Assembly (NCBI GenBank): GCA_036925085.1
Contig: JAUPFP010000002.1
Span: 2,812,550-2,876,549, forward strand
Direction of reading: 5' to 3'
From: Brachycybe producta
Lineage: Eukaryota > Arthropoda > Diplopoda > Playtdesmida > Andrognathidae
DNA: 64,000 bases
Part shown: positions 6,481-59,419 of the stretch, piece by piece
Layout of the letters: each line of letters begins with the position of its first letter
Numbering within the stretch: position 1 is the stretch's first letter
The notes under the pieces: generated by a model
Seen by the model: the letters and a program-made list of their open reading frames with translations, nothing else
The model's database searches: none
What the model was told of the DNA's origin: nothing
Position numbers and translations under genes: made by a program

Positions 6481-7119
6481 TAACCCGAAACACTATTTTG
6501 CCACATGGGACTATCTTGTTCCACCATCGTTTTGTTCTTTGTTCTCTAACTTGTTTCCCTTGGGACACTTGCATCCCAAGTCATCATCTTCAAACAACTC
6601 ATCATCATCACCTCAATGAACACTCACATGAACTATCTCTATTAGACATTATTGAAGCCTTCCGCCATTTTTGTTCGACCGGAAGTCCTTCAAAAGGCGC
6701 CAACAGAGCAGTTTTTTGCTCCATGTGAGAACCTTGTTGATTCTTCTTTTTGTTTTCTTTCTTTTCCTCTTCCAGTGGGTCTGCACTTGCGTGCCCCCTG
6801 GTATTTTTTTTGGGGGGGGGGGAAATCCCACTTTTTTCTTTGGATTTTCTCTTTTGTGCATTTCCTCTTGGTGGCTACAAAACGCCACCTGGCAGATTTC
6901 TATTTGGACAATACATCATCATTTACCAACCAAGAGCAATCCTGGTTTGTTTTTTTGTGTAGTGATGCAGAACTTTGTCATCCCGCTGTAGAGTCGTAAC
7001 AAAGGGTTGATCCAGTTCTGCAAAACTGTTTACCCTTTAATGTTGATAAGGACGTTAATGTTCTTATTTAGTTCACACCTCGCCAGGGTCTGGGCCCTTT
7101 CCTCTCAGTATTTTTGTTG
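6481..7119. other. Non-coding stretch, no clear feature
   Basis: Overlapping ORFs across the poly-T and poly-G tract near 6805-6830 are low-complexity artefacts. I see no known repeat until the LTR remnant that follows. Confidence 0.4.
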
Positions 7120-8036
7120 AAAACTGGTCAATCATTTCATTGGTCCATTTGGTTTTAAGTTTTTGTAAGTGACCAATGAGAGCAAGCATGTCAAACTCAA
7201 AGGCTAACACGGGCCAAATAAACAATGTCTAAGTTTATGTGGGCCGCAAAAAAGAAAAACTTCCATTTTTATAGAAATGTAGGTTTATTTCGAAAAGTAC
7301 AGTATAACAAAGAACAAGGACAATGATGAACAATTAATGTTTTCTTCCTGACACTTGGCATCTCTTCTCTACTTCGGGGGAAATCTTATTTGCAGTGATT
7401 ACTTCCAAAACTGACCCAAGTTGATTGTCAGTAATCCTGGATCTGACAGGCTTCACCGCAAAAATATTCGCTGTGGGCCGCGAGTTTGACATGCTTGAAT
7501 TAAAGGATTCCGAGAAAATCCTCTTGGGTATGTAAGTCTGTTTTTGTGTACAAATTAAGCATTTTCATCATGGAGAATCTATGCTCGATTTTGTTCAGAG
7601 AGCATTCTTTGAAACACTTTTGAAGATAGAGAATCCATGCCCAATAGTGGCCAGATTCTGAAACAGTTTGTGTTGCAAGAGTAGTGTTGCTATGTTCAAA
7701 AAGTTGCTGAAGTTTTTATTTTATTTTTGTTAAGTTGAATGTAGAAACGCCAACCCAGGTGGAAACCTTGATACTACATTCTAAATGAAAATAGAGAACA
7801 ACATGATCTAATGGCTTTGAGTCGTGCATCAGCCATAAGGGTAACAAACAGCGAAAAACATTCTTTACACTGTAAAGGTTCTTAGAGAGAGAAACTTGTG
7901 AGGAAACGAGAGGGACTATTTTGTTCCTCCCGAACCAGAATAGAATAAGTGGCCAAGCCAACCACTTTCACCATGCCCGAAAGAGCGAACTGAAACCATT
8001 TAGTAGAGTATTCACCCGCTGAAGGTGGTTCGTTAC
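7120..8036 (+). mobile_element. Degenerate LTR related to the 17.3-kb element
   Basis: This is the + orientation counterpart of the 863-bp LTRs. Shared landmarks are TCTCAGTAT, CTGGTCAATCA, CCTCCCGAACCAGAATAGAATAAG, GGCCAAGCCAACC and the end GAAGGTGGTTCGTTACA at 8036. It is interrupted by a hAT-type MITE at 7183-7497 and is clearly older than the 17.3-kb copy. The ORF at 7716-7961 is spurious. Confidence 0.7.
7183..7497. mobile_element. hAT-type MITE inserted in LTR
   Basis: The termini are CAAGCATGTCAAACTC and GAGTTTGACATGCTTG, with GGGCC-rich subterminal sequence, as in many animal hAT derivatives. Flanking 8-mers AATGAGAG and AATTAAAG match at 6 of 8 positions, consistent with an aged 8-bp duplication. 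Confidence 0.65.
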
Positions 8037-9589: not shown

Positions 9590-9993
9590 TGTAAGTATGT
9601 GTGTTCTTTGGTATAAAAGTCTGTGTTTTTTTGTGTAAATGGAGCACTTTTTGAATTGATTGCTCGATAATGAATCTATGCCCGGTTGTGGCCAAATTCT
9701 GAATCAGTTGTATATTTTTCGAAATAAACTATTATGGGCAAAAAGTTGCTTTAGGTTTTATTTTGTATTTACTAAGTCAAACAAAGGACTTTAACATTTT
9801 CTCATCTAGAACTACCAATCCAGGTGCAAACCTGGATCACCAACACTAGATGAGGCCTAAGAGGACAACACGTTTTACCGGCTTTTAATCAGGCGCAAAC
9901 CTGGGGAGTAGCAGACAGCGAAAAGATTCTTGAAACTGTAAAAGTTCATAAAAGAGGAAAAAATTCTATTCCCCCTAAAGGTGGTTCATTACA
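9590..9993 (+). mobile_element. Second degenerate LTR fragment of the same lineage
   Basis: It has GGTATAAAAGTCTGTGTTT at 9611, then AATCTATGCCCGG, ATCTAGA, CAGGTGCAAACCTGGATC, GTAGCAGACAGCG and the end AAAGGTGGTTCATTACA at 9993, all in LTR order. The upstream half is missing. Sequence at 10020-10100 (CTGGTCAATTTG, CATATAAAACCC) may be the start of a further copy. Confidence 0.6.
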
Positions 9994-15353: not shown

Positions 15354-16245
15354 TGTAACGAACAACACATTCAGGGGTCTAATAGAATTATCAAAAAGTA
15401 TCGTAGCGCTCTTTCGGGCGATCGGAAAGTGGTTGGCTAGGCCACTAATTCTATTATGGTTCGGGAGGAAGGGAACAAATTAGTCCCATACGTTTCCTCA
15501 CAAGTTCCTCTTTCAAGAACCTTTACAGTTTTAAGGATCTTTTGTTGTCTGCTACTCCCCGGGCTTTCGCCCGTAAAAAGCTGGTTGATCGTGCTGTCTT
15601 CAGAAGTCTCATCTAGTGCTGGAGAGCAAGGTTTACACCTGGGTTGACAGTGCTAGATGACAAAATGTTTGAAGTCCTTCGTTTTGTTTTTAAAAGATAA
15701 AAATAACTTCAACAACTCTTTAACTATAATTTCCAGTTTATTTACATCTCATCATCTCTAAGCAAATTTGGGCATAATGTCTGTGTCCAAATAATTGCTT
15801 TCAAGACTGCTTACTTTACACAAAAATACGTGGTTATTTATACCCAAAAAGAGGATACTGAGAACAGTTTCTCAGTATTCTCTGATTGGGCAAAATCAAA
15901 CTTAAAAACCAAACTGGCCAATCAATGTGATTGACCAGTGGTTACTAAAATATAGCAAAGTGATTCATCTTAATCAAAACAAAATTACAAAAGAAAGTTT
16001 TCACCCCATAGACCCAATGCTGAGGCTTATCAGGTCGATCTCTTTGTATTAAGGGGTGGGACTGGGAGGAAAAAGGGACCCAAGACCCAAGATAGGATAT
16101 TGGCATCGTCATCAGCTGATGGAACTGGGTCAATCCTCTGTACGTGAGTACAGAGGGTTGACAAAGTTCCAGGCCGATCCAAAAATAACCAAACGATCCA
16201 CAAAAAACTAAGTGAGCCAGGATCGCTCCTGGACGTATCGTTTCA
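15354..16245 (-). mobile_element. Solo LTR related to the 17.3-kb element
   Basis: Read on + it runs TGTAACGAACAACACA ... GGTTCGGGAGGAAGGGAACAA ... GTGAGCCAGG ... GTATCGTTTCA. It follows the 863-bp LTR in order but with substantial divergence (892 bp). It divides one minisatellite into two blocks. No clean short target duplication is visible in the repetitive flanks. Confidence 0.8.
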
Positions 16246-16475
16246 CCAATGATAATGATAATGATAATAGATAATGATAATAGATAATAGATAATAGATA
16301 ATGATAATAGATAATGATAATAGATAATGATAATAGATAATGATAATAGATAATGATAATAGATAATGATAATAGATAATGATAATAGATAATGATAATA
16401 GATAATGATAATAGATAATGATAATAGATAATGATAATAGATAATAGATAATGATAATGATAATGATTATAATTA
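16246..16475. repeat. TAGATAATGATAA 13-bp minisatellite, right block
   Basis: About a dozen units follow the solo LTR. There are no unique spacers, so it is not a CRISPR-like array. Reading-frame peptides rich in Ile/Tyr/His are artefacts. Confidence 0.95.
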
Positions 16476-16700
16476 TAATAACTATTAATAATAAAAAAAT
16501 ACACTTGCCTTTAATGGTTTTTGACACAACAACAGCCAGAGCGAACTACAATAACAAATCTCAAATTACTGTAAAACCAGAAAACACTTCTTTGTAAATA
16601 AAAAAAAACAAGAAACAAATAAATCTGACGTTGAATTTAGTGAATAAACTCAGTAGCTTTTAAAACAATGACATTTTCGACATCATTTTTAACCTTGCGT

Positions 16701-17156
16701 AAACGACATTATAATGAGCGTTGTAACCTAAAATCCATTTAAATACTGTTTTTATATATATGCGCGCCCTCTTTTATGAAAAGCAGTCAAACTAGGCGGA
16801 CATCTTGTGTCGTCATTCTGGGTAGCGTCTTTCAAGCACGAAAACCCCACCCCATTTCTCTCGACCAATAAGGTATTGTGCACATTTACTTCATTCTCAC
16901 TGGTGCTCCAAATGGGACATTTTATTGTGTGTGTGCGCGCAATATTATTGAGCGTGTGCACAATATTATTGAACGTGTGCGCGCAATATTATTGAGCATG
17001 TGTGCACAATATTATTGTGTGTGTGTGTGCAATATTATTGTGTGCGCACGCGCTATATTATTGTGCGTGTGCACAATATTATTGAGCGCGCACGTAATAT
17101 TATTGAACGTAAATTATTGTGCGAAATGTTCCAAACGGGCTTCCATAGAAATATAA
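16701..17156. repeat. Right arm of large inverted repeat, with minisatellite
   Basis: Reverse complement of 12658-13222: AACGACATTATAATGAGCG, then ATATATGCGCGCCCTCTTTT, CCCACCCCATTTCTCTCGACC, the CAATATTATTG minisatellite (16930-17110) and CCAAACGGGCTTCCAT. The spacer between the arms is about 3.5 kb. Confidence 0.75.
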
Positions 17157-17314
17157 TTAAAGTTCTTGACTTTTTTTTATTAATAGTTGGTTCTTTTAAA
17201 TAGTCGTTTTATGACTATTTAAAAGAACCAACTATTAAATAAAGGTGGAACTGGGAAATAAAACTAATTTTTTTTTCTTTCTCTAAAATGATGTCATGAT
17301 TTTGTTAAAAATAG
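17157..17314. other. Short spacer with inverted hairpin
   Basis: TTTTTATTAATAGTTGGTTC is followed by GAACCAACTATTAAATAAA, forming a long hairpin around GACTATTT, just before the retrotransposon. ATAG at 17311-17314 is the retrotransposon's target duplication. Confidence 0.5.
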
Positions 17315-18177
17315 TGTAACGAACCACCTTGTGGTGGATAAAATATACCAAAAAGCGGTTGGCTAAGCCGCTTATTTTATCCTGGTTCGGGAGGAAGGGA
17401 ACAAATTAATCCCTTTTCCTATTCCTCACAAGTTCTTCCTTGTTGAACTTTTACAGTAAAATGGATCTTTTAGCTGTCTGCTACCCCTCGGACTTTCGCC
17501 CGTTAAAAGCTAGTTGATCGTGTTGTCCCTTGAAGTTGCATCTAGAAGTGTTGATCCGGGTTTTCACCCGGATTGATAATTCGAGATGAAGATGATTTTA
17601 GAACTTTCGTTCTCTTCATTAAGTATAAAAAAATATGACTTGGCAATTTTAAAGCATAACATTCGTTTATTTACAGTTCTATTCCTTGAGGTCTATCCCA
17701 AATTGGGCATAGATTCTCTATTTACAGAATGCTTGATTTACATCAAAATACACGGCCTTTTATACCCAAAAAGAGGATACTGAGAACCATTTCTCAGTAT
17801 TCTCTGATTGGGTAGAATCAAAATGAAAAACCAAACTGGCCAATCAATTTGATTGACCAGTGGTCACCAAAATATAGGAAGATGATTCATCCTATTAAAA
17901 AGACAATTTTCCAAGAAAAATACAACCCCATTGACTTAATGCTACTGCTTATCAGCATGATCTTTTTGTATTAAGGGGTGGGACTGGGAGAGAAAGAGAC
18001 CCAAGACCCAAGAGGTGACCCAAGACAGGATATTGGCGTTGTCAGCTCAGAGAACTAGGTCAATCCTCTGTACATCAGTACAGAGGGTTGACAAAGTTCT
18101 AGGCCAATCTAAAAACAAAAACAAACGATCCACAAAAAACTAAGTGAGCCAGGAGCACTCCTGGACTGATCGTTTCA
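17315..18177 (-). repeat. 3' LTR of the gag/ORF2 retrotransposon
   Basis: On the - strand it begins TGAAACGATCAG and ends GGTGGTTCGTTACA. TATAAAAGG is read at 17764-17756 and AATAAA at 17671-17666. The small + strand ORF at 17586-17783 is duplicated in the other LTR and is not a gene. Confidence 0.92.
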
Positions 18178-18904
18178 CCCCCCCAACTAAGCCTGAAGTT
18201 CGTCCCTGAACTTCACACTGGTAAGCAGCCGCACTAAGTCAAAACAAAACCCCTTTTGAAAAACTTTCATTTTGCATCAAAATAAAAAAAATACAATTTG
18301 TACCGATAACAATATCACAGGTTTCATTATCAATTTATCACAGAATGATTTTTAACCCTGAGATCCCTTAAACCCCTCAAAATTTACATTTCCCAATTAA
18401 ATTTGTAATTTATTCGACTAGAATACCCAAGAATAGAATTTAAAAATAACGACATCTCCCCCAAGATAGATATTTTTAAATTACAATTAAACCCTGACTA
18501 ATTAAGATATAAAGTTTAAAGAAAACCCCCTTTTCTTTAATTCAACTGAAAGAAAGTTAAAACAAACCCTCTTCTTCCCAAACGATAAATATAAAAAACG
18601 TATCTAAGAACTTTAAATTACATTTCCCTCCCAAAAACCCTGACTAAAAAAAAATAAAAGAAAACCCTTCTTTAAATTTTTATAGCAAAAACAGTTAAAA
18701 TCTTTTTAACTTCTCCAAAAAGAAACGAACGTTCAAAGTTTTAATTTTCACCCATAAGGAATTCCCTCTTCCCTTTTTAAACCCAAAAATAAAAATAAAA
18801 ACAATTTGAAAAATTCTGCCTCCTTGCCGACTCGTTCCTCCGGTTTCCTTAGCGTGAATCGGAACTGGTCCGCGCTGATCCTTTTTCCGTTCCTAGTCCT
18901 CCGT
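18178..18904 (-). other. 3' non-coding region of the retrotransposon
   Basis: AT-rich sequence between the end of ORF2 and the 3' LTR, with no ORF on the element strand. Next to the LTR, 18178-18184 reads GGGGGGG on the element strand, a short candidate polypurine primer; a long classical purine tract is absent. Confidence 0.6.
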
Positions 18905-21889
18905 CTAGTGGTCCGGCTCCAAGTGGCCTCCCTGGTCTCTGGGTCTGGGTTCTGCTTCCGTCGAAAGGATGGTCAAATCCTCCAACATCCGAAGTGGTAT
19001 GACTTGCGACTTTGGGATTGCTCCCAGTACGATTGACTCCATCAGGTCCAGCTGCTGGATGGCCAGGTGCGCATTTCCATCCTGTTCCTTCAAGCGATGA
19101 TGAACAATGTTCCGGTGGCCCCTGCCGCTAGGGATCAGTGTTGCCATCATCGATGAGATAACCGCCTCGAAGATCTGGCTGTGGGATTGCTCCCAAGGCT
19201 GTGGATAAACGAGATTAAGGGTGCTGGGTTCGGCGTTGTTATGGAGAACGACGGGCCAGTGGTCCAAAACTTGTACGACAACTGCGGTCCAGGGCCTGTC
19301 TTGCCTCGGACAAAGTCGATCCTCCTTGATTCCTTCGTCGCTGTTGAGAAAGCCTAAATAACGAAAGACATTTCTCCCCCAGCGACGCCCAAAAGAAACT
19401 AACCCATTTCGCAGCAGCCGAAATTGCCGTCGGTTGGACAGCTTCCCATCCGACATATTCAGTCGGTCCTTAGGCCATTGTTGAGGAGGTGGTGGTGGAG
19501 AGATCTTCGGGATCACTCCCGTGGCTGGTCCAGGCGTTGGTTGGCTTGGATGGCCGCGTTCCCCTGGGAAGATCTGGTCCCTATGCTGTTTCCTCCTCTC
19601 TGTAGCACCTTGTCCCTTCCTGCCCTGTCCAGGTATGTGGGGATGGCGAAACGGCTGGATTCTGGCCGTCTCGGATCTCCTTGGTGGGTCCCTTGACTCC
19701 TTCCTCGGTCTGGTTCTTCGTTCCTCTTGAGGCTGACTTTTGGCGACGTCTCCTTGGCGTCTCGGGTCCCTGGGCCTCTCAGCAACGAATTTCTCCCTGT
19801 TGAGCCGAGCGGGATTGCTCACCGCTGGCGGATGAGCTTCTCTCCTCGGTTCTACAACTTTAGAAGCGATGGAGACCCTCTCCATCGCCCCAGACAATTT
19901 TAAAGGCTTGTTAGGTTGGTGCACGTACCCTCTGACGATTGGTTGGTCCACCGTGACCCAGCTGTTTGAAGGGGAGACATCCCTTGGTGTTGTCCTCTTT
20001 GGTAGCGCTGTGCCAAACGCTGGCACTTTGTTCGGGGACCGTCCCCTAGCTGCCAGTTCCTTGTTTTGCCCATCGATCCAATTCTGCATCGCTTTTTTAT
20101 CGGCATTTTTTTCTCCTTTCGTCCGACCTCGACGATTTGAGCCACCAAGCTCTGCTGGAAGACATCCATCATGTAAACTCCCTGGTGGAGTATCCATCTC
20201 TTCCGGTAGCCTGGGAAACTGTAGAGTTGGGTCCCTGGCGGGCCCTTCGTAAACGATTTCCGGCTCTGGATTGCCGCTTCGACGCTGTTCGGGAGGTGAG
20301 TGCATTAACGGGACAAAATTAGTGGTCTCACCCTCTGGCGTCTTCCTTTTCTTCGTTTTCGAAGATCCTGCAGCTTTATCCTTTTTAGGCGACGATGGCA
20401 CGGCATTGCTGCCGGAAAGAATTCCTGCAGCGATGGTGTTTTCGTCGTCTTCCTCCCCAAAAAGCATCCTTAGCCAGTCCGGTGTCATCTCGCCGGTGTC
20501 CATCACTATCTCCAATTCGGATGCTTCTTCGGTCCCAGATGCTCCCTTATCCATGAGTCCAGCCATCCTCTTTTCGATTATTCCTTTTTTGGAAGTTGAC
20601 ACTTTTTGTTTTCCGATAAAATCAGAATCGCGACTATTCTTTGCAGAATCTGATTTGAAAGTGGCGTCCAAAATGGTGGCTGTCTTCTCACGTGATCCTG
20701 TGGGGCTTGCAAATTCAATTTCCGGCCGGAATTGGGAGGAGCTTCTATCCAAAAAGTTTCTTTCTCCTTTTTCTCCCACCAGGCGGCGCTCCGTATAGCG
20801 GCAAATTCGAATTTTAGCCTCTCCCTTGCACAATTTGGACGTTAATTCATCGTTTGATGAAGTTTTAACGCCAAATTGTTCCTTTTTAGGAGTCGATCGA
20901 GTTTTACCGTTCTCAATCGACATTCCTACCCGTGTTTGCACACGGGAGGCTGTAGATGTCTCTCCCTTAGAGATATTTTCGGCCTGCCCGCGTGTCTTTT
21001 TCCAGAATTCCTTTTTGGACACCCTGTCCGTAGTTTCCTTTCGTTTTTGATGACCATCCTGATCATCTTTAGTGCCACCCTGACACTTTTCTATTTTCAC
21101 ATCTTCCCTATAAAGATGCTCCTTTTCAGTTCCACCCTGGAACTTCTCGTTTCGAGGCGTCTCTTCCCTATGAAGATGTCCCTCTCCTTTTTCAGGAGCA
21201 GCTACTCCTAGCTTCACTGCGACCTGTTTCCCATTGGACTGCACCATGACATCCGCCTTAGATGTCTCGATGAGCCCACTTTGCAGTGGCACTGTTGGTT
21301 GGCATCCCCCATAGACGCTACAACTCCTGAGGCCAGTTGCAAAGTTCCCTTTTTGTCCCTTTACAGGAGCAGTTACTTCCTTTTTCACTAACTCCTGTTC
21401 CTTTGCAGGAGCAGCTACTTTCCTTTTCACTGACTCCTGTTCCCTGAAGGGCTTAGTTTCGACATTTTCCCTTAATGTCTCGACGGCCCCAATTTGCAGT
21501 GGTTTCTTGAGTTGACCTCCCCCATTGATGATACGACTTTCGATTCCAACTGCAATTTCCTTTTTCGATGCCAGTCTTGTTGAGGCTTCTTGTCTAGCTA
21601 CAGCTTGGCTTCCCTTTTGTTTCTTTGCAGCCGCCGTATGTCGGTCATTTTGGCACAGGTCTGTGGGTTCCCCTATAGATCCCTCCTGTCGAACCTCGAT
21701 GCACATAACGTGTGGTAGCTCGGAGACTTCCCTTTTTTGCCGAGTTGCAGCTTGGACTCCCTGATGACTCTCCAAGTTGACTTCGATTTTTCCGTTATCC
21801 TTTTCCGTAATCGTTTCAGTTTCGGGCGTCACTACTTTGGGGCTGAGTGGCGCCCTTAGAAGTTTAAAGCCTCTTCGGTCAGATTTTCC
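18905..21889 (-). CDS. Retrotransposon ORF2, unknown function, follows Gag in frame after TGA
   Basis: I do not recognise this protein. The frame is open for about 994 codons from the base after the Gag stop to the stop at 18907-18905. It has no ATG near its start; the first is over 40 codons beyond the GTG at 21832. Translation by stop-codon read-through from Gag is therefore more likely than independent initiation. Numbered from that GTG, residues 1-450 are Lys/Glu/Gly-rich with two similar segments of about 50 residues (around 100-150 and 168-216; PLQIGAVET / PLQSGLIET, then KVAAP / GVAAP). Residues 450-780 are Pro/Arg-rich and probably disordered, ending in a PPPPPQQW stretch. Residues about 790-960 look globular (FRYLGFLNSDEG, WTAVVVQVLDHWPVV, HLAIQQLDLMESIVLGAIP). 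No YxDD, DTGA-type protease, RNase H or DDE integrase pattern is seen. Confidence 0.75.
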   Translation of the reverse strand, partial: GKSDRRGFKLLRAPLSPKVVTPETETITEKDNGKIEVNLESHQGVQAATRQKREVSELPHVMCIEVRQEGSIGEPTDLCQNDRHTAAAKKQKGSQAVARQEASTRLASKKEIAVGIESRIINGGGQLKKPLQIGAVETLRENVETKPFREQESVKRKVAAPAKEQELVKKEVTAPVKGQKGNFATGLRSCSVYGGCQPTVPLQSGLIETSKADVMVQSNGKQVAVKLGVAAPEKGEGHLHREETPRNEKFQGGTEKEHLYREDVKIEKCQGGTKDDQDGHQKRKETTDRVSKKEFWKKTRGQAENISKGETSTASRVQTRVGMSIENGKTRSTPKKEQFGVKTSSNDELTSKLCKGEAKIRICRYTERRLVGEKGERNFLDRSSSQFRPEIEFASPTGSREKTATILDATFKSDSAKNSRDSDFIGKQKVSTSKKGIIEKRMAGLMDKGASGTEEASELEIVMDTGEMTPDWLRMLFGEEDDENTIAAGILSGSNAVPSSPKKDKAAGSSKTKKRKTPEGETTNFVPLMHSPPEQRRSGNPEPEIVYEGPARDPTLQFPRLPEEMDTPPGSLHDGCLPAELGGSNRRGRTKGEKNADKKAMQNWIDGQNKELAARGRSPNKVPAFGTALPKRTTPRDVSPSNSWVTVDQPIVRGYVHQPNKPLKLSGAMERVSIASKVVEPRREAHPPAVSNPARLNREKFVAERPRDPRRQGDVAKSQPQEERRTRPRKESRDPPRRSETARIQPFRHPHIPGQGRKGQGATERRKQHRDQIFPGERGHPSQPTPGPATGVIPKISPPPPPQQWPKDRLNMSDGKLSNRRQFRLLRNGLVSFGRRWGRNVFRYLGFLNSDEGIKEDRLCPRQDRPWTAVVVQVLDHWPVVLHNNAEPSTLNLVYPQPWEQSHSQIFEAVISSMMATLIPSGRGHRNIVHHRLKEQDGNAHLAIQQLDLMESIVLGAIPKSQVIPLRMLEDLTILSTEAEPRPRDQGGHLEPDH

Positions 21890-23278
21890 TCATGAAAATA
21901 GTGTCACTCCATTGATGTCGACAGGCACCATTCTCATACCATTCGGCAGGACGTGAGTTTCGTAAACTTCGACAGTATTTGAAAATTGCGTCGCCGTCGT
22001 TACCAACGGTTCGTCGACTCTGTTTACAGGTGTCGGTGTAGCCGCAGCAACGCTCCTTCCTTGTTCCGGTTTTGATTTTGCAGGATTTGGGCAGTCACGA
22101 CCCATGTGGCCCGCCTCCCAACATCGGTAGCAGACGAGTGGCCCCTGATTTTTGTTCCAAGAAGTTCTCTGCCTGTTTTGATGTTCCTTTTTTGTCTGTT
22201 TCGGTTCTTGGTTGTCAGCCTTTTCAGGCGGATTCGACGTTGTGTCTTGTCCGCTTGATACCTTTGGTTGACTCTGTTGATTTGCTCGATTCGGCTGGCT
22301 TGTGCCCGCTTTGGTTGTAGTTCCAGCCGATGTTTTGTAAATCAACTCCCTTTCATCAACGAGTTCACCTTCAGTTTGAGTGGTGAAGCGAATGAACTCG
22401 TGATACCGATCCTTTGGCGCCCCATACAGATGTTTTCGAAGTGCTGGTAGCAGACTTTTTCGGAGCGTAGCTATCAGCAAAGATTCATCATCATTTGGGT
22501 GAATCCTCCGATACATTTCCGCATATTTCTCAGCATAGACCCTGAAAGTTTCGTGGTCTTGCTGACGCCTCTCAATCAACTCTCGATTCATGCGGACTTT
22601 TTGGTCCGGTAGGAGGAATTCGGCTATGATTCCCTCCTTCATAATCGACCAGGTGATTTCTTGTCCCTCGTAAGCAGAGCGGAAGTGTGCAAGCCATTTT
22701 ATTGCACGCTTCCATAAGAGCCCTGTGAAGTGTCTGCATCGCTGCAGGGAAGTCCAGTCATGTGCAGTAGCGATGTCCTCGAATTCTTCCACGTAGAGAA
22801 GGATGTTCTCGTCGCCTTCGTACTTCGGAAATCCCTGCAGAGGATGTAACGAATTCCTCTCAGAGTACGGCGTTGGTCCCAGGTCCGGTGTCCATTTGGT
22901 AGTTTCATCCGGACCGGGCTTTCGCCCGGGTTCGATCGACTCCAATTCCGTATTGATCGAGCCCTCTCTCTTCTCGCTTCGTTCGTCGCCCAAAATTTGA
23001 CGAACCAATTCATCTTGTTTTTCCTTTGACAGTTTACCAATGATGTCGGCAATGGCGGCGTGTTCTGGCGTCTTGCTCCCATCAATGGACTGCACCTCAG
23101 GCTTGACAGCAACAGGAGTTGGTGGAAGTACTTCGGTTTCCTCCTTGGCCTCCTCCAGTTGAGTACGTTGCCTCTTCACGATCCTCTTCAACGCAGCAGT
23201 TTTCTTCTTTCGACGTCGTTCCTCCCTCAGTCTCTCGAGGTCCCTCAGATCTTTGAGTAGCTTCTGAAGACTGGTCAT
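21890..23278 (-). CDS. gag: Ty3/gypsy-type Gag polyprotein
   Basis: This 462-residue structural protein would assemble the retrotransposon particle and package its RNA. Residues 1-50 form a charged helix (LRDLERLREERRRKKK). About 150-320 match the Retrotrans_gag capsid-type region: YVEEFEDIATAHDW, AIKWLAHF, then ETFRVYAEKYAEMYRRIHP and ATLRKSLLPALRKHL. A Gln/Pro/Lys-rich linker leads to a single CCHC knuckle near residue 382 (CYRCWEAGHMGRDC). The last residues, VPVDINGVTLFS, resemble the first strand of a retroviral-type protease, but the catalytic Asp-Thr-Gly never follows; a TGA ends the frame. The start is the first ATG after the primer site, 79 bp inside the 5' LTR. Confidence 0.9.
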   Translation of the reverse strand: MTSLQKLLKDLRDLERLREERRRKKKTAALKRIVKRQRTQLEEAKEETEVLPPTPVAVKPEVQSIDGSKTPEHAAIADIIGKLSKEKQDELVRQILGDERSEKREGSINTELESIEPGRKPGPDETTKWTPDLGPTPYSERNSLHPLQGFPKYEGDENILLYVEEFEDIATAHDWTSLQRCRHFTGLLWKRAIKWLAHFRSAYEGQEITWSIMKEGIIAEFLLPDQKVRMNRELIERRQQDHETFRVYAEKYAEMYRRIHPNDDESLLIATLRKSLLPALRKHLYGAPKDRYHEFIRFTTQTEGELVDERELIYKTSAGTTTKAGTSQPNRANQQSQPKVSSGQDTTSNPPEKADNQEPKQTKKEHQNRQRTSWNKNQGPLVCYRCWEAGHMGRDCPNPAKSKPEQGRSVAAATPTPVNRVDEPLVTTATQFSNTVEVYETHVLPNGMRMVPVDINGVTLFS

Positions 23279-23356
23279 TTCTGACGTCGATGATTCTCTG
23301 CTGCGTGTTTTTCAACATGATTTTTGTAGCTTACGGAGTAACAAGTTGTTCAACTA

Positions 23357-23372
23357 CCCCGCACCTCCACCA
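23357..23372 (-). promoter_or_regulatory. Primer-binding site, tRNA-Ala-like
   Basis: Four bases inside the 5' LTR, the element strand reads TGGTGGAGGTGCGGGG. This complements a tRNA 3' end GCACCTCCA plus CCA, which fits an alanine tRNA acceptor stem. The tRNA identity is inferred from memory of animal tRNA-Ala ends. Confidence 0.6.
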
Positions 23373-23376
23373 AATT

Positions 23377-24239
23377 TGTAACGAACCACCTTGTGGTGGA
23401 TAAAATATACCAAAAAGCGGTTGGCTAAGCCGCTTATTTTATCCTGGTTCGGGAGGAAGGGAACAAATTAATCCCTTTTCCTACTCCTCACAAGTTCTTC
23501 CTTGTTGAACTTTTACAGTAAAATGGATCTTTTAGCTGTCTGCTACCCCTCGGACTTTCGCCCGTTAAAAGCTAGTTGATCGTGTTGTCCCTTGAAGTTG
23601 CATCTAGAAGTGTTGATCCGGGTTTTCACCCGGATTGATAATTCGAGATGAAGATGATTTTAGAACTTTCGTTCTCTCCATTAAGTATAAAAAAATATGA
23701 CTTGGCAATTTTAAAGCATAACATTCGTTTATTTACAGTTCTATTCCTTGAGGTCTATCCCAAATTGGGCATAGATTCTCTATTTACAGAATGCTTGATT
23801 TACATCAAAATACACGGCCTTTTATACCCAAAAAGAGGATACTGAGAACCATTTCTCAGTATTCTCTGATTGGGTAGAATCAAAATGAAAAACCAAACTG
23901 GCCAATCAATTTGATTGACCAGTGGTCACCAAAATATAGGAAGATGATTCATCCTATTAAAAAGACAATTTTCCAAGAAAAATACAACCCCATTGACTTA
24001 ATGCTACTGCTTATCAGCATGATCTTTTTGTATTAAGAGGTGGGACTGGGAGAGAAAGAGACCCAAGACCCAAGAGGTGACCCAAGACAGGATATTGGCG
24101 TTGTCAGCTGAGAGAACTAGTTCAATCCTCTGTACATCAGTACAGAGGGTTGACAAAGTTCTAGACCAATATAAAAACAAAAACAAACTATCCACAAAAA
24201 ACTAAGTGAGCCAGGAGCGCTCCTGGACTGATCGTTTCA
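23377..24239 (-). repeat. 5' LTR of the gag/ORF2 retrotransposon
   Basis: 863 bp, essentially the same as 17315-18177 with scattered substitutions (for example AGGGGTGGG versus AGAGGTGGG). The promoter TATAAAAGG is at 23826-23818 on the - strand. TG...CA termini are intact and ATAG follows at 24240. Confidence 0.92.
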
Positions 24240-25502
24240 ATAGAATAATCAAGGGGGATTGAAAATTGAAAAATAACAAAACCGCGAACAACAATAAAAA
24301 AAAAACACAAATAAATGGGGAGAAAAAAATCATGTTTATTGAACTTGTACTTATAAGAAGAAAAAAATTCCATCAACTTGATTTGAGTCGATTCATTCAA
24401 TTAATCGAAAGGTGTCGAATCGATTCAATTAATCGATTAATTAGAACTAAAAAAAATCGATTTTCCGATTAATATAATCGGAATCGGGCATCCGTCGGTT
24501 GCACAGGCAAGTGTGCCCAGCACTAAAATTTTATTGGCTCCGCCCTTTTATGAGCGTCAGACCAAATATCAACCAATTAGAAATTGAAAAGGGCGGGACA
24601 TGTGACATCAGACCAAGTAACAAACCAATTAGATATTGATGACGCTCATAAAAGGGCGTAGCCAATAAAAGTTTTAGTGCTGGGCACACTTGCCTGTCTT
24701 TAGTTGCAGACACTGCCACTGCCAGACGGTAGTGTGTATATAAGTGAAGTGTAGTTGCAATGCAAGTGAACGTGTTTCTCGTATATTCCCAAGTGCTAAT
24801 TAGTAGGAAAAAAAAAAGATTTGCAAGCGATGATATTTGGGCTAAATTTAAAGTTGCATCATCAGCTTGGTGAGAAATTATTGCATCTGCCATCTGTAGA
24901 TTAATTATGAATTCAATGATGAAGTCGACTACTATGAATTCTGTTGTTGTTGCTGCAAGTGATGTGTTTGTGGCGGCGAGGATAAATTCATCCTAAGAAC
25001 AAACAATTGCTTTTTTTTTGTTGTTTTTTAATCCAAATCTTGGTATTAATGCTCAAATTTCGGCTCAATGAATGTGCTGGGTGCTGCTGCTAATAAGAAA
25101 CAATGCCCAAAAGTGGGACAAGAAAAGAATTTCTACTTGGATTCCGCCTTTTATTACGAATATCTCCTTAGATGACCACATTTTTTCTTTTGTTTTTGTT
25201 TCTATTTTACAGTGAAATTAGTCTGGTTTACAATGGAAATCTGAATCATGTCACATTCGTATTAATTGTGACTATTATCGCAGACATCAAATAACCCGAC
25301 GATTTTATTTGTTGAAAACATTTGATTCTTGTTGCTTTTTTTTAATTTTCACTTTAACACAATGTTGCCTTTTTTATTTTTAAAGAAGAATCGACGCGAT
25401 GATGTATTTTGTGTGTGAAATTCAATGACCAAGAGGGCCCTACGTTTATAGATGTAATTTTTTTTTATGATTAGGAAAGAAAAAGGACAACACACGTAAA
25501 AA
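24240..25502 (+). promoter_or_regulatory. Upstream region of convertase gene; candidate TATA at 24737
   Basis: After the retrotransposon there is an ATCGATT-rich patch (24360-24480) and a MITE (24503-24697). TATATAAGTGAAGTGTAG follows at 24737-24754, about 770 bp before the first coding ATG and correctly oriented. The same block exists at 12565, so it may be transposon-derived. No CpG island or initiator can be assigned, and a non-coding first exon could lie anywhere here. Confidence 0.3.
24503..24697. mobile_element. Mutator-like palindromic MITE (GTGCCCAGC subfamily)
   Basis: The ends are ACAGGCAAGTGTGCCCAGC and its reverse complement, with an inner ATTGGCTCCGCCCTTTTATG block. The flanks show no perfect 9-bp duplication. 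Relatives lie at 26572, 27032, 37786 and 46272. Confidence 0.75.
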
Positions 25503-55814: not shown

Positions 55815-58800
55815 CAGAAATTACAATTACAATTAGAATTCTGCTAGCAGCCAAATAGGCCTATGGCAGAGGGACATAAAAGTCCACATGCAGCATTAAG
55901 CATTGTCAAGCACATATATATGCACATATATGAATACAAAATGAATATACAAATGTCAATCCCACAAAACAAAATTATCCCCATTCACCACTGCCTCTGG
56001 AAGAGAGTTCCATTGTCTTATTACTCTAGGGAAAAAAGACAAATAATATGAATCTTTCCTAGCAAAAATCTCTCTAATTTTCTTAGAGTGGTCAGCCCGG
56101 CCCATGTATAGTGCTTTATGAATATCACTGGACTGTGGTTTAGGACAATCACCACGTGTAATTTTTCCTAACAATTTCAAACTTAACTCAGCCCTGCAAT
56201 TTGCCAAACTATGCCATTGTAGCCCTGACAGCATCTCAGTGACCCTATCTGTAAATTTGTGCCTGCCACAAACAAACCTAGCTGCCTTATGCTGAACCAT
56301 TTCAACTGAGTGAGTGAGTATGACAGAGTGAGGATTCCATACACTGTAGCAATACTCGAGATGAGGCCGAACCAATGCTTGATAGGCAATAGTTTTAACT
56401 TGTGCTAGGCAGGTGCCCAGTGTCTTTTGACAAAAACGAAGCATTTGTAGAGCTTTCCCAGTAACACCATCAATGTGTTTTTCCAGAAAGGTCATCTGTC
56501 ATTGTTACCCCCAAGTACTTATAACACTTGACACTCCGAAGATCAATGTCATTCATACTATAACTGAACACAATTGGATTTCTACCCCGAGTTAGCCTCA
56601 TAACACTACACTTCCCCTCATTCAACTGAAGTTGCCATGTATTACACCATCAATCAATTGCCTTCAAGTCTAGAGCTAATGTTTCACAGTCTAGGATACC
56701 ATCAGCCTCTTTGTAAATTAGAGTATCATCAGCAAATAGTCTGCAGTTGCTGCCAACTGTGCTGCTGAGGTCATTAATAAATATCAGGAAAAGAGGACCC
56801 AACACACTACCCTGGGGTACACCAGATTTAACAGCCAACCACTGTGAGTGAGACACATTTACAACTACCCTTTGTTTCCTATGACTTAAAAAAGAAGTTA
56901 CCCATTTGGTTACCTGTCCCCCAACTCATATGCTGCAACTTTTGCCAGAAGTTTTGAATGTGAAACAGTGTCAAATGCCTTACAAAAGTCAAGAAATGCC
57001 ATGTCAACCTGCTTATCATTGTCTAAACTTTTCTGGAGGTCATCCACTACCAGGATAAGTTGTCTCACAAGAGCACCCTCTCAGGAAACCAGGTTGGTTA
57101 TCAGAAATGAGATTGTGAGATTTGAGAAACTTAATGCAGCCAGAGTATATGATATGCTCAGGAATTTTACAAACCACTGAACTTAGAGATCCAGGCCGAT
57201 AGTTTGCAGCTTCGGACTTATTACCAGACTTAAATATTGGGGTAACATTTGCTAATTTCCACATACTTGGAACAACCCCTTGATACAAAGACTGCTGATA
57301 AATTAGCTGAAGAAATGGTCCCACTTCCCTAGCTAATTTTATAAGAACTACTGCATGAATTCCATCTGGCCCCCCACTTTTATTTTTATTAAGGGTCAAT
57401 AGTTGCTTGATAATGCCCTCAGTATTAACAATAATATCCCCAAAAGAATGCATTGTTCGAGACTGTAACGACCTGGTTGTCGCCACAACACCCTGGCAAG
57501 ATTTTCCCCAACCTTACCAGATCCTGACTCCGTTAGGGGCCGGGATCGGATTGCTGGCTAGCCCTCCTCTTGTCCGTCCATGTCCTGGGTGACGACGGTC
57601 CGGAGTCCTCCCCGCAAGTCGACGGTGAAATCCCGCCGACCGAAACAAAGAATCCATGGTAAATCCCCGATGGATCTTACCGTAGACACCAACGCCAAGT
57701 ATTGGCCGAAAATGCCGGAAACATGACGGACGAAGGACGGTGATGGTCCGGTGTTTCCCCACCAGAAACCCCCACCCTCCCCGCGGTAACTTCCCCAGTA
57801 AATTACACGGACACACAGTGTGTAGGTTTAAAATAAAAGAGAGTATTTATTCTATATAACTTAATTAAATATGCAATAATCTGCCTGGTTACTCCAACCA
57901 GCAAAGAACAAAACAAAAGCACCAAACCAGCAAACACAGAAGAACAAAGGAAAGATGAATGGCGGCCATCTTGGCCACCCAAAAGCACAAAACACATCGT
58001 CCTCAGCATCCAGCCTCTAACACACTGCCCAGTATATAATGGCGCCACCCATTGTATACCCCCCAGGCTGCTCCACCTGGGGGTTGACAGTGACCCTTGC
58101 TGGCCTTTCCGTCATCTGCCGGGCAGCCTACTACAGGCGCCTAGCAGACGACACCAGGAGTTTAGTCTGCTCCTAATGAAAGGGGCAAAACTGGGTCGTC
58201 ACAAAACTCAAAAGTTTTAGGTGTAGTATTTTAATCTGCTGTAAAACACTCCTGTATTGTTCATTCAACAAAGAAGCTTTCAATTTTGGGTGTGATATTA
58301 GTTCTCCATTTGCCCCAACAAGAGCTGGAATCGAGTACTCACCAGCCCGTGAATGCTTGACATACCTCCAAAACAGCTTTGGATTTTCTTGCAGCCATGT
58401 ACTGAGTTTATCAGTTTTAAAATCCTTACGGGCCAATGCCAGTTTTGCCAGGGGTTTGTGGCAGACCCAAGTCGGGTCGTTACAGCTTTAACGGTACTCC
58501 TAACATTAACATTGACATCACAAGTTACAATGTGATAGTTACTAATTCCTTCAGAAACCTTAACATTAGATATCATAAGGGGAATGTTAGTTATTACAAC
58601 ATCAAGGACACTACTATTCTTAGTTGGTTGCATAACCATCTGTTCTATGGAGTAAATATCCAAACTATCCAACAATGAAACATCTAAAGTAACATCATTC
58701 CCACCTGTAATTGAGCGAAGTTCCCAGTTTATGTTTGGGAAGTTAATATCACCTCCTAAAATTATAGCTGGGTTATTGTGCGCATGATGAAGGGCATCGA

Positions 58801-58990
58801 GACATGAGCGAAAGGCAGCTATATCACTAATTGAAGATCCTGGTGGGCGATAGAAAGAAATTAAAAATACCTTTTTCCCATTGAGCAGCTCTACACTGCA
58901 GCAAACTATCTCACACCCAGTCTCAAATGCCTGTTCCCTTTGGTTGTTAAGCAAATTAGAAAGTAAGTTGCACTCACAACTAAAAAAGTA
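55815..58990 (-). pseudogene. LINE (CR1/L2/Rex-like) with endonuclease and RT, copy 2, broken
   Basis: Read on the - strand. From 58993 an APE-type endonuclease segment is recognisable (FLISFYRPPGSSISDI, ILGGDINFPNINWE). From 57486 the reverse transcriptase follows (NKSGGPDGIHAVVL, VTPIFKSGNKSEAANYRP, then GVPQGSVLGPLFLIFINDL and CRLFADDTLIY carrying the catalytic FADD). From 56495 comes the C-terminal segment (YQALVRPHLEYCYSVWNPH, FFPRVIRQWNSLPEAVV). Frameshifts and stops are scattered, the 5' end is missing, and an LTR (57464-58203) separates endonuclease from RT. The 3' tail at 55815 has AATTACAATTACAATT. Clade assignment is by motif style only. Confidence 0.85.
57464..58203 (-). mobile_element. 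Solo LTR inserted in the LINE
   Basis: 740 bp from TGTAACGACC to GGTCGTCACA on +. It matches the LTR at 1-760 in reverse orientation (ACTTCCCCAGTAA, CCAGGCTGCTCCACC, CTTGCTGGCC). The LINE open frame resumes on each side. Flanks AGAC and AAAC are only partly alike, so the 4-bp duplication is degenerate. Confidence 0.8.
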
Positions 58991-59419
58991 CAAGCAATTT
59001 TATAGTGCAACTATTTTTTTGTATTGGATAGTAAACATAAAATCTATTTTTCTACATAATCACTAAGGCTGTACCAAGCCAATTTTGCCGAACTGATTTT
59101 TGTCGATTTACTGCTAATCGTAAAAAATCGGATCGGCGAACAAATGTTAAAAGATTTCCAATCATTAACGCACTAAACAATTTGGTCTGCGACCCGATAA
59201 AACGGCAGCGGTGGAGGGTCAATCAATTTATTACCAACTTCATCACTAATTCATCTTTAAAAGAATATTGTTGTCTTGCCATTTGCTTTGTAAACTCGAA
59301 AATTATAATTTAATTTTTTTTTCCAGACGTTCTTGTGTGAAACGCTTCTTTCTTGGCCGACACAAGCAGCCAAAATCGGTAGTGAAAATCGGCATGATTG
59401 ACTCGGTTAAATCGATCGG

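Follow-up and report, generated by a model that had tools for sequence, protein, structure and literature searches.

TR-GAG elements consist of LTRs with a primer binding site (PBS) and a polypurine tract (PPT), and carry gag only, with no other coding domain. In pol-less Athila families, which are non-autonomous, two proteins (Gag and Env) are under purifying selection, according to the available part of PMC2410132. The wheat element Quinta has kept Gag and lost the enzymes, and its partner Cereba has the same primer site and LTR ends (PMC11302176, available sections). For mouse IAP 1-delta-1, a Gag-Pol fusion born by deletion reportedly assists in cis, while Gag and Pol have to be supplied in trans (PMC7411935, in extract). 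The CERV protein of C. elegans is needed for the export of Cer1 genomic RNA (PMC10309623, in extract), and sense ORFs beside gag-pol in plants have already been reviewed (PMC7264820 and PMC11963269, in extract). Non-autonomous elements with Gag and a second protein are on record in Athila and Quinta, as these extracts give it; a first-pass annotation of the present locus had noted that Gag-only elements of the TR-GAG type are not known for a second protein of such size. In the open-licence papers searched, no element was described as Gag plus the ends of Pol without the enzymes.

The locus lies in the window (the whole stretch of 64,000 nucleotides of Brachycybe producta DNA that was analysed) and occupies positions 17315-24239 of the minus strand. 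Its features are collected in Table 1; they follow in the order LTR, four bases, primer site, gag, ORF2, an AT-rich leader of ~730 bases, PPT and LTR. The two LTRs differ by nine mismatches, and AATAAA is found at LTR base 507. The TGGTGGAGGTGCGGGG primer site, four bases inside of the 5′ LTR, presumably corresponds to tRNA-Ala. The TG..CA LTRs, a target duplication in the range of 4-6 bp, the PBS and PPT, and a Gag with capsid and CCHC knuckle are characteristic of Ty3/gypsy (Metaviridae) elements. In the Pfam search, Gag matched Retrotrans_gag (E 1.2e-5) and zf-CCHC (E 9e-5). The Pol order PR-RT-RH-IN of this group is absent from the window element and present in a related family of the same genome, family C, which indicates that the element is a non-autonomous derivative.

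Table 1. Positions of the subfamily A element and of the neighbouring solo LTR in the window.
Feature	Positions	Strand	Remarks
5′ LTR	23377..24239	-	863 bp, TGAAACG...GTTACA, TATAAAA box at LTR base 414
3′ LTR	17315..18177	-	98.96% identity to 5′ LTR
Target-site duplication ATAG, left	17311..17314	.	
Target-site duplication ATAG, right	24240..24243	.	
Primer binding site TGGTGGAGGTGCGGGG	23357..23372	-	Identical 16-mer in family C
Polypurine tract G7	18178..18184	-	Adjoins 3′ LTR
gag	21890..23278	-	462 codons counted from the ATG; this copy lacks the C-terminal end and the frameshift reading
Slippery heptamer UUUAAAC	21862..21868	-	Read in the gag frame elsewhere; not usable in window copy
Stem-loop GGGCGCCACU-loop-AGUGACGCCC	21824..21855	-	Six bases 3′ of heptamer
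ORF2	18905..21889	-	994 codons; Pol frame without enzyme core
N-terminal Pol extension	21176..21871	-	ORF2 residues 7-238; repetitive, fast-evolving
C-terminal Pol extension	18911..21001	-	ORF2 residues 297-993; constrained
Lone subfamily B LTR (solo LTR)	15426..16247	+	~1 kb from subfamily A element

The solo LTR is 95-98% identical to 39 other places in the genome, and smaller LTR-like pieces lie at 7751-7968, 9802-9959 and 6945-7019. Next to the element, at 16251-16497 and 16919-17131, lie an array of 13-bp tandem units (GATAATAGATAAT) and a degenerate array with a unit of 21-23 bp. LINE remnants at 55956-58999 (minus strand) contain an endonuclease-like frame (Exo_endo_phos_2, E 2e-9) and a weak RT.

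The 994 codons of ORF2 are free of stops, while the longest frame obtained in 500 first-order Markov simulations of ~4.5 kb, built from the dinucleotides of ORF2 itself, was 336. Codon usage fails to single out the ORF2 frame (0.42 vs 0.43 and 0.37). The Pfam scan gave no match at E 1 or better for ORF2 or for ten other frames of the internal region, and no env-like transmembrane segment was found, the top 19-residue hydropathy being 1.15 in ORF2 and 1.43 in the family C extension. The first-pass annotation had described an LTR element that carries Gag, is non-autonomous and has a large uninterrupted frame where pol would be expected, with no protease, RT, RNase H or integrase, and this description stands at the full 994 codons. 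In ORF2 and the ten other frames scanned, the enzyme domains are absent, not degraded; we rejected the reading of ORF2 as a degraded or frameshifted pol, and likewise its reading as a new pol in favour of a derived non-autonomous Ty3/gypsy element. Searches of collections that are mainly prokaryotic and viral revealed no relative of the whole ORF2 among 5.8 billion proteins (best 7992 candidates scored), of its last 215 residues among the same number (E up to 10), of gag, or of ORF2 in a collection of genome contigs. A viral contig collection searched with ORF2, gag and A4 also gave no relative, ORF2 had no match in PDB or PHROGs, and the tail had none in PDB.

The source of ORF2 was found in the genome of the window itself. 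A distant, broken copy (L028) shows 36-55% identity to ORF2, and a stop-free stretch of 168 residues from it retrieved family C, with at least 150 matches (best 150 of 319 candidates); among the matches listed, 21 lie in frames of 2204-2207 codons. In the same search, the A and B tails appeared with 41-43% identity. The family C copy on contig 11 (L051-L053) shares with the A/B elements the gag (47-59% identity), the primer site TGGTGGAGGTGCGGGG and the frameshift signal. Its Pol frame of 2206 codons consists of an N-terminal extension, a protease-RT-RNase H-integrase core (protease 287-373, RVT_1 644-804, RNase H 867-997, H2C2 1102-1159, rve 1176-1273) and a long C-terminal extension, and its best PDB match is Ty3 Gag-Pol (E 8e-124). 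The LTR pair of this copy has 1 mismatch in 927 nt, and RT-region pieces of three further copies are open frames with 98-99% identity. Residues 7-238 of the subfamily A ORF2 match family C Pol codons 5-226 (29%, E 2e-15), and residues 297-993 match codons 1542-2205 (40%, E 5e-122). The enzyme core that lies between the matched ends, ~1300 codons, is missing in frame from both A and B. As judged from these alignments, ORF2 is a Pol frame of the family C type minus the enzyme core, with both extensions kept.

The first-pass view that pol had been replaced by an unknown, foreign frame is thus overturned by the homology of ORF2 to both non-enzymatic ends of the family C Pol. An autonomous relative carrying pol, which that annotation had suggested looking for, does exist in family C but does not have the same LTR: the A and C LTRs can be aligned over only ~150 nt, at 68%. 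Their termini are alike, not identical (TGAAACG..GTTACA in A vs TGAGACG..GTCACA in C, or TGARACG/GTYACA). The identical 16-nt PBS and the matching LTR termini of A and C are the signs by which non-autonomous and autonomous elements are paired in the available part of PMC11302176. The lack of any Pfam, PDB, PHROG or protein-database match for ORF2 would suit the capture of a host gene, but the direct homology to both ends of the family C Pol frame, together with the same frameshift start, refutes this source for the A/B family and leaves it a negligible probability. A host gene may have been captured earlier, by an ancestor of family C.

A by-eye comparison revealed a junction segment common to A and B, KT.G.A.N[IV]SK.ETSTASRVQTRVG, whose left part is lacking in C, which favours one loss before the A/B split. 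Splicing could also account for the removal of the entire core between flanks that stay in frame, if a spliced, enzyme-less RNA of the ancestor was packaged, copied and became the founder. The precedent is Cer1, where a spliced mRNA connects exons in the gag frame with the C-terminal portion of the polyprotein, as described in the accessible part of PMC10309623. However, only mediocre GT/AG sites occur near the family C boundaries (the best donor in codons 5-226 scores 6/9), the junction falls in an unalignable linker and its exact ends are thus blurred, and recombination or deletion during reverse transcription explains the loss equally well. We regard the splicing origin as improbable.

The copy searches covered the window's own genome (295.3 Mb, 442 contigs). 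With ORF2 as a query, at least 65 matches were obtained (best 46 of 1716 candidates). Among those listed, 19 span residues 1-994, with 18 of them stop-free, and 15 of subfamily B span residues 218/219-994 at 66-67% identity, with 14 stop-free; the subfamily B frames have 1021-1051 codons. A and B together carry ORF2 in tens of copies, so it is not the one-off insertion that the first-pass annotation had named as a possible outcome. The gag query gave at least 95 matches (best 92 of 2546 candidates). All eight gag loci that we read among those with no listed ORF2 match have ORF2-like sequence downstream, some of it degraded, shortened or partly masked, and among the matches listed, including these eight loci, no pol was seen beside an A/B gag. 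LTR stretches of 572-869 nt compared in nine copies are identical in five, 99.8% identical in three and 98.9% identical (gaps only) in one.

Subfamily A copies are mosaic. The end of ORF2 (last ~150 codons) in L006-L008 is as distant from L001 as a separate lineage would be: over the last three segments compared, these copies show 76% identity to L001 and 76-81% to subfamily B. This suggests that templates were switched between co-packaged RNAs. L022 is an internally shortened variant of subfamily B in which the middle of ORF2 (~515 codons) is missing, and for B copies of ~5.6 kb at C12:3007454, C23:1156734 and C25:3024835 the shortening was inferred from the LTR spacing. L027, L035, L039 and L043 represent another gypsy family (gag ~23-25% identity where measured), which at L027 and L039 is nested in old copies of A/B type. 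The gypsy element at these two primer sites was considered as a partner and rejected because of this nesting.

In the ten other copies compared first (L009-L018; eight B, two A), gag overlaps ORF2 in the -1 frame. Gag ends there with ...VDINGVTHYFHEENLT[EK]EALN[FC] and a stop, and ORF2 starts upstream of this stop. The overlap contains U UUA AAC in the gag frame, followed by a six-base spacer that includes the gag stop and by the stem. An X XXY YYZ heptamer in the gag frame, a short spacer and a downstream structure characterise -1 frameshift sites; these ten loci have UUUAAAC, a 6-nt spacer and a 9-pair stem, and the same arrangement is present in a fourth group, D. All four groups (A, B, C and D) have the heptamer and the stem in identical form. 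Of codons 4-16 beyond the slip, only one varies among A, B and C, and the codons that follow differ in all three. The stability of the stem-loop is not unusual (z -0.09), and energy alone fails to single the stem out. No covariation was found in the stem, and no pseudoknot was apparent by eye at the signal. Since the -1 overlap at UUUAAAC with the stem occurs in most copies read, ORF2 is expected as a minor Gag-ORF2 fusion, which intact copies should make by -1 frameshifting, as Gag-Pol is made.

The window copy departs from this arrangement. A short frame-changing deletion in its gag, immediately 5′ of the signal, leads to an early end at TGA, and ORF2 follows behind in the same frame; one old copy, L024, ends gag in the same way. 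Stop readthrough, which the window copy suggested, was rejected because the other copies show the -1 overlap. As the gag of the window copy ends upstream of the heptamer, this copy is unable to make the fusion there and is a defective member of the family. With an LTR divergence of ~1%, it is older than several of its relatives, in which the two LTRs show 99.8-100% identity. Seven of its LTR differences fall within 180 bases (17976-18157 vs 24038-24219), which is uneven for mere ageing. Thus, of the parts first annotated as intact, the LTRs, the primer site and the ATAG duplication are so and gag is not wholly so, and several relatives inserted more recently than this copy.

Selection was analysed on 16 distinct copies (8 A including the window, 8 B). 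Mean dN/dS was 0.21 (A-A), 0.34 (B-B) and 0.20 (A-B), and the A-B comparison gave dS ~1.2 and dN 0.24. The test pairs below are not all independent. In the C-terminal half of ORF2, pN/pS was 0.19-0.20 in three A pairs (p < 1e-29) and 0.36, 0.14 and 0.35 in B pairs (p 1.4e-4 to 1.7e-9; the L011/L013 pair gave 0.14 at p 1.4e-4). The N-terminal half gave 0.80-1.09 within A, not different from neutral, and 0.80, 0.49 and 0.61 within B, not significant; an in-frame repeat pair inside this half showed dN/dS ~0.86. Values for gag were 0.13, 0.23 and 0.13. Because of the mosaic A copies, part of the signal could stem from an unsampled lineage, and the test was repeated on codons 750-1075 of L001-L005. 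All five pairs gave low values (0.26, 0.37, 0.26, 0.28 and 0.10; p 0.015 to 1e-7). Selection on ORF2, which the first pass had named beside very recent origin as what could keep the frame open, is borne out as purifying selection on the C-terminal half. This data indicates that the C-terminal part is a maintained protein and the N-terminal part a fast, repetitive linker that stays open.

If ORF2 were a passive remnant, A and B would have moved wholly in trans, and the frame would be open through youth or through past constraint in an unsampled autonomous lineage that recombines with A and B. The mosaic ends of L006-L008, the N-half pN/pS near 1 and internally shortened copies such as L022 agree with such a remnant. 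It is opposed by the selection seen within B and in codons 750-1075, where the A copies are clonal, by a dS of ~1.2 against a dN of 0.24 between two lineages that both keep the frame open, and by the eight extra gag loci, none of which has pol with an A/B gag. We consider a remnant rather unlikely. Constraint on the RNA, such as a packaging signal, could explain why the codons just behind the slip show constraint even at their synonymous sites, but elsewhere synonymous sites change far more than the others, and a constraint on RNA in place of protein is highly improbable.

We conclude that the A/B family is, very probably, a long-lived non-autonomous Ty3/gypsy lineage descended from a Gag-Pro-Pol ancestor whose core was lost; it would receive its enzymes in trans, and its tail would act in cis. 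The ancestor would have lost the region from protease to integrase in frame and retained both non-enzymatic Pol extensions as well as the frameshift signal. Intact members would make much Gag and, by -1 frameshifting at the conserved UUUAAAC, little Gag-ORF2. RT, protease and integrase would come in trans, either from C, with which the primer site is shared, or from D. Family C is the most likely donor because the primer site, the PPT type and the LTR termini are shared. The tail on Gag-ORF2 would favour its own coding RNA, as selection on the tail could not otherwise be expected to last.

As for the role of the tail, its last domain of ~190 residues and a KKRK motif are conserved. KKRK was present in 4/4 ORF2 sequences and in the one family C Pol examined, and a leucine-rich export motif was present in A and B and absent from C; such motifs are common by chance. 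Single-sequence AlphaFold models of the tail reached a mean pLDDT of 35.5 and 38.8, too low to define a fold. By analogy with Cer1 CERV, the tail may be a nuclear or RNA adaptor acting in genomic RNA export or in nuclear return of the DNA complex, a suggestion that we make tentatively.

A query with the RT of family C gave at least 106 matches (best 106 of 3309 candidates), all 96-100% identical. Among the matches listed, 22 lie in frames of 2204-2207 codons (one with TGA), 19 in frames of 1697-1704 and 15 in frames of 1920-1950. Inspection by eye placed none of the tail-domain matches listed in the search with the L028 stretch at the expected position in any of the 19 frames of 1697-1704 codons. 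In the shorter-frame copies read, one of each kind, Pol tracks family C as far as codon 1629 in L058 and codon 1768 in L059, and ends there. Both copies belong to group D and look autonomous apart from the truncated Pol tail. L058 has one mismatch in 934 bases between its LTRs and a primer site, TGGCGAGAGGTGCGGGG, unlike that of A and C. A stretch of its LTR is 84-86% identical to the promoter region of A and B over 139-185 nt and is lacking in C. The genome thus contains four modular forms: a complete C, a D that lacks the tail, and A and B, which lack the enzymes. It is conceivable, though we would not expect it, that A/B and D form a split complementary system in which A/B give Gag and the Pol tail and D gives Gag and the enzymes, with mutual dependence if the tail is needed for transposition. 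Both halves have moved recently, and family C would then be the undivided form. Were this so, a retroelement genome would be split between A/B and D in the manner of multipartite viruses. With enzyme-free and tail-free versions occurring naturally in a single genome, the role of the Pol tail becomes directly testable.

Among the systems compared, family C shares the primer site, the frameshift signal, the type of LTR termini and both Pol extensions, and its Gag is related. It differs in having protease, RT, RNase H and integrase, in proteins that are 29-59% identical, and in LTRs that are mostly unalignable. TR-GAG elements are similar in having kept Gag and lost the enzymes, whereas the A/B family has a second conserved frame of 994-1051 codons and falls outside their definition. 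In the available part of PMC11302176, Quinta likewise has a second domain of unknown function, DUF1, beside Gag; that domain is not traced there to Pol, whereas ORF2 consists of Pol's own ends behind a frameshift signal. In Athila, the second protein is an env-like ORF (PMC2410132, in extract), while in the window family it is a Pol extension. IAP 1-delta-1, as given in the extract of PMC7411935, is also a deletion derivative of an autonomous family with a cis-helping fusion; it is a recent retroviral ERV with a gag-pol deletion, whereas the window family is old, has lost the whole core and has a fusion predicted to arise by frameshifting. Cer1 CERV resembles the tail in being an additional protein derived from the polyprotein end of a Ty3/gypsy element, with no known homologue and a basic KRKK motif, but it is made from a spliced mRNA in an element that keeps its enzymes, and the resemblance is one of position only (PMC10309623, accessible part). 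What non-autonomous LTR elements keep is usually Gag or nothing; the present lineage, an old one, has kept the non-enzyme parts of Pol under selection, which points to a cis-acting function of the Pol extensions that is worthwhile even without reverse transcriptase. The A/B element is thus of a known kind, a non-autonomous Ty3/gypsy element, with an unusual retained module.
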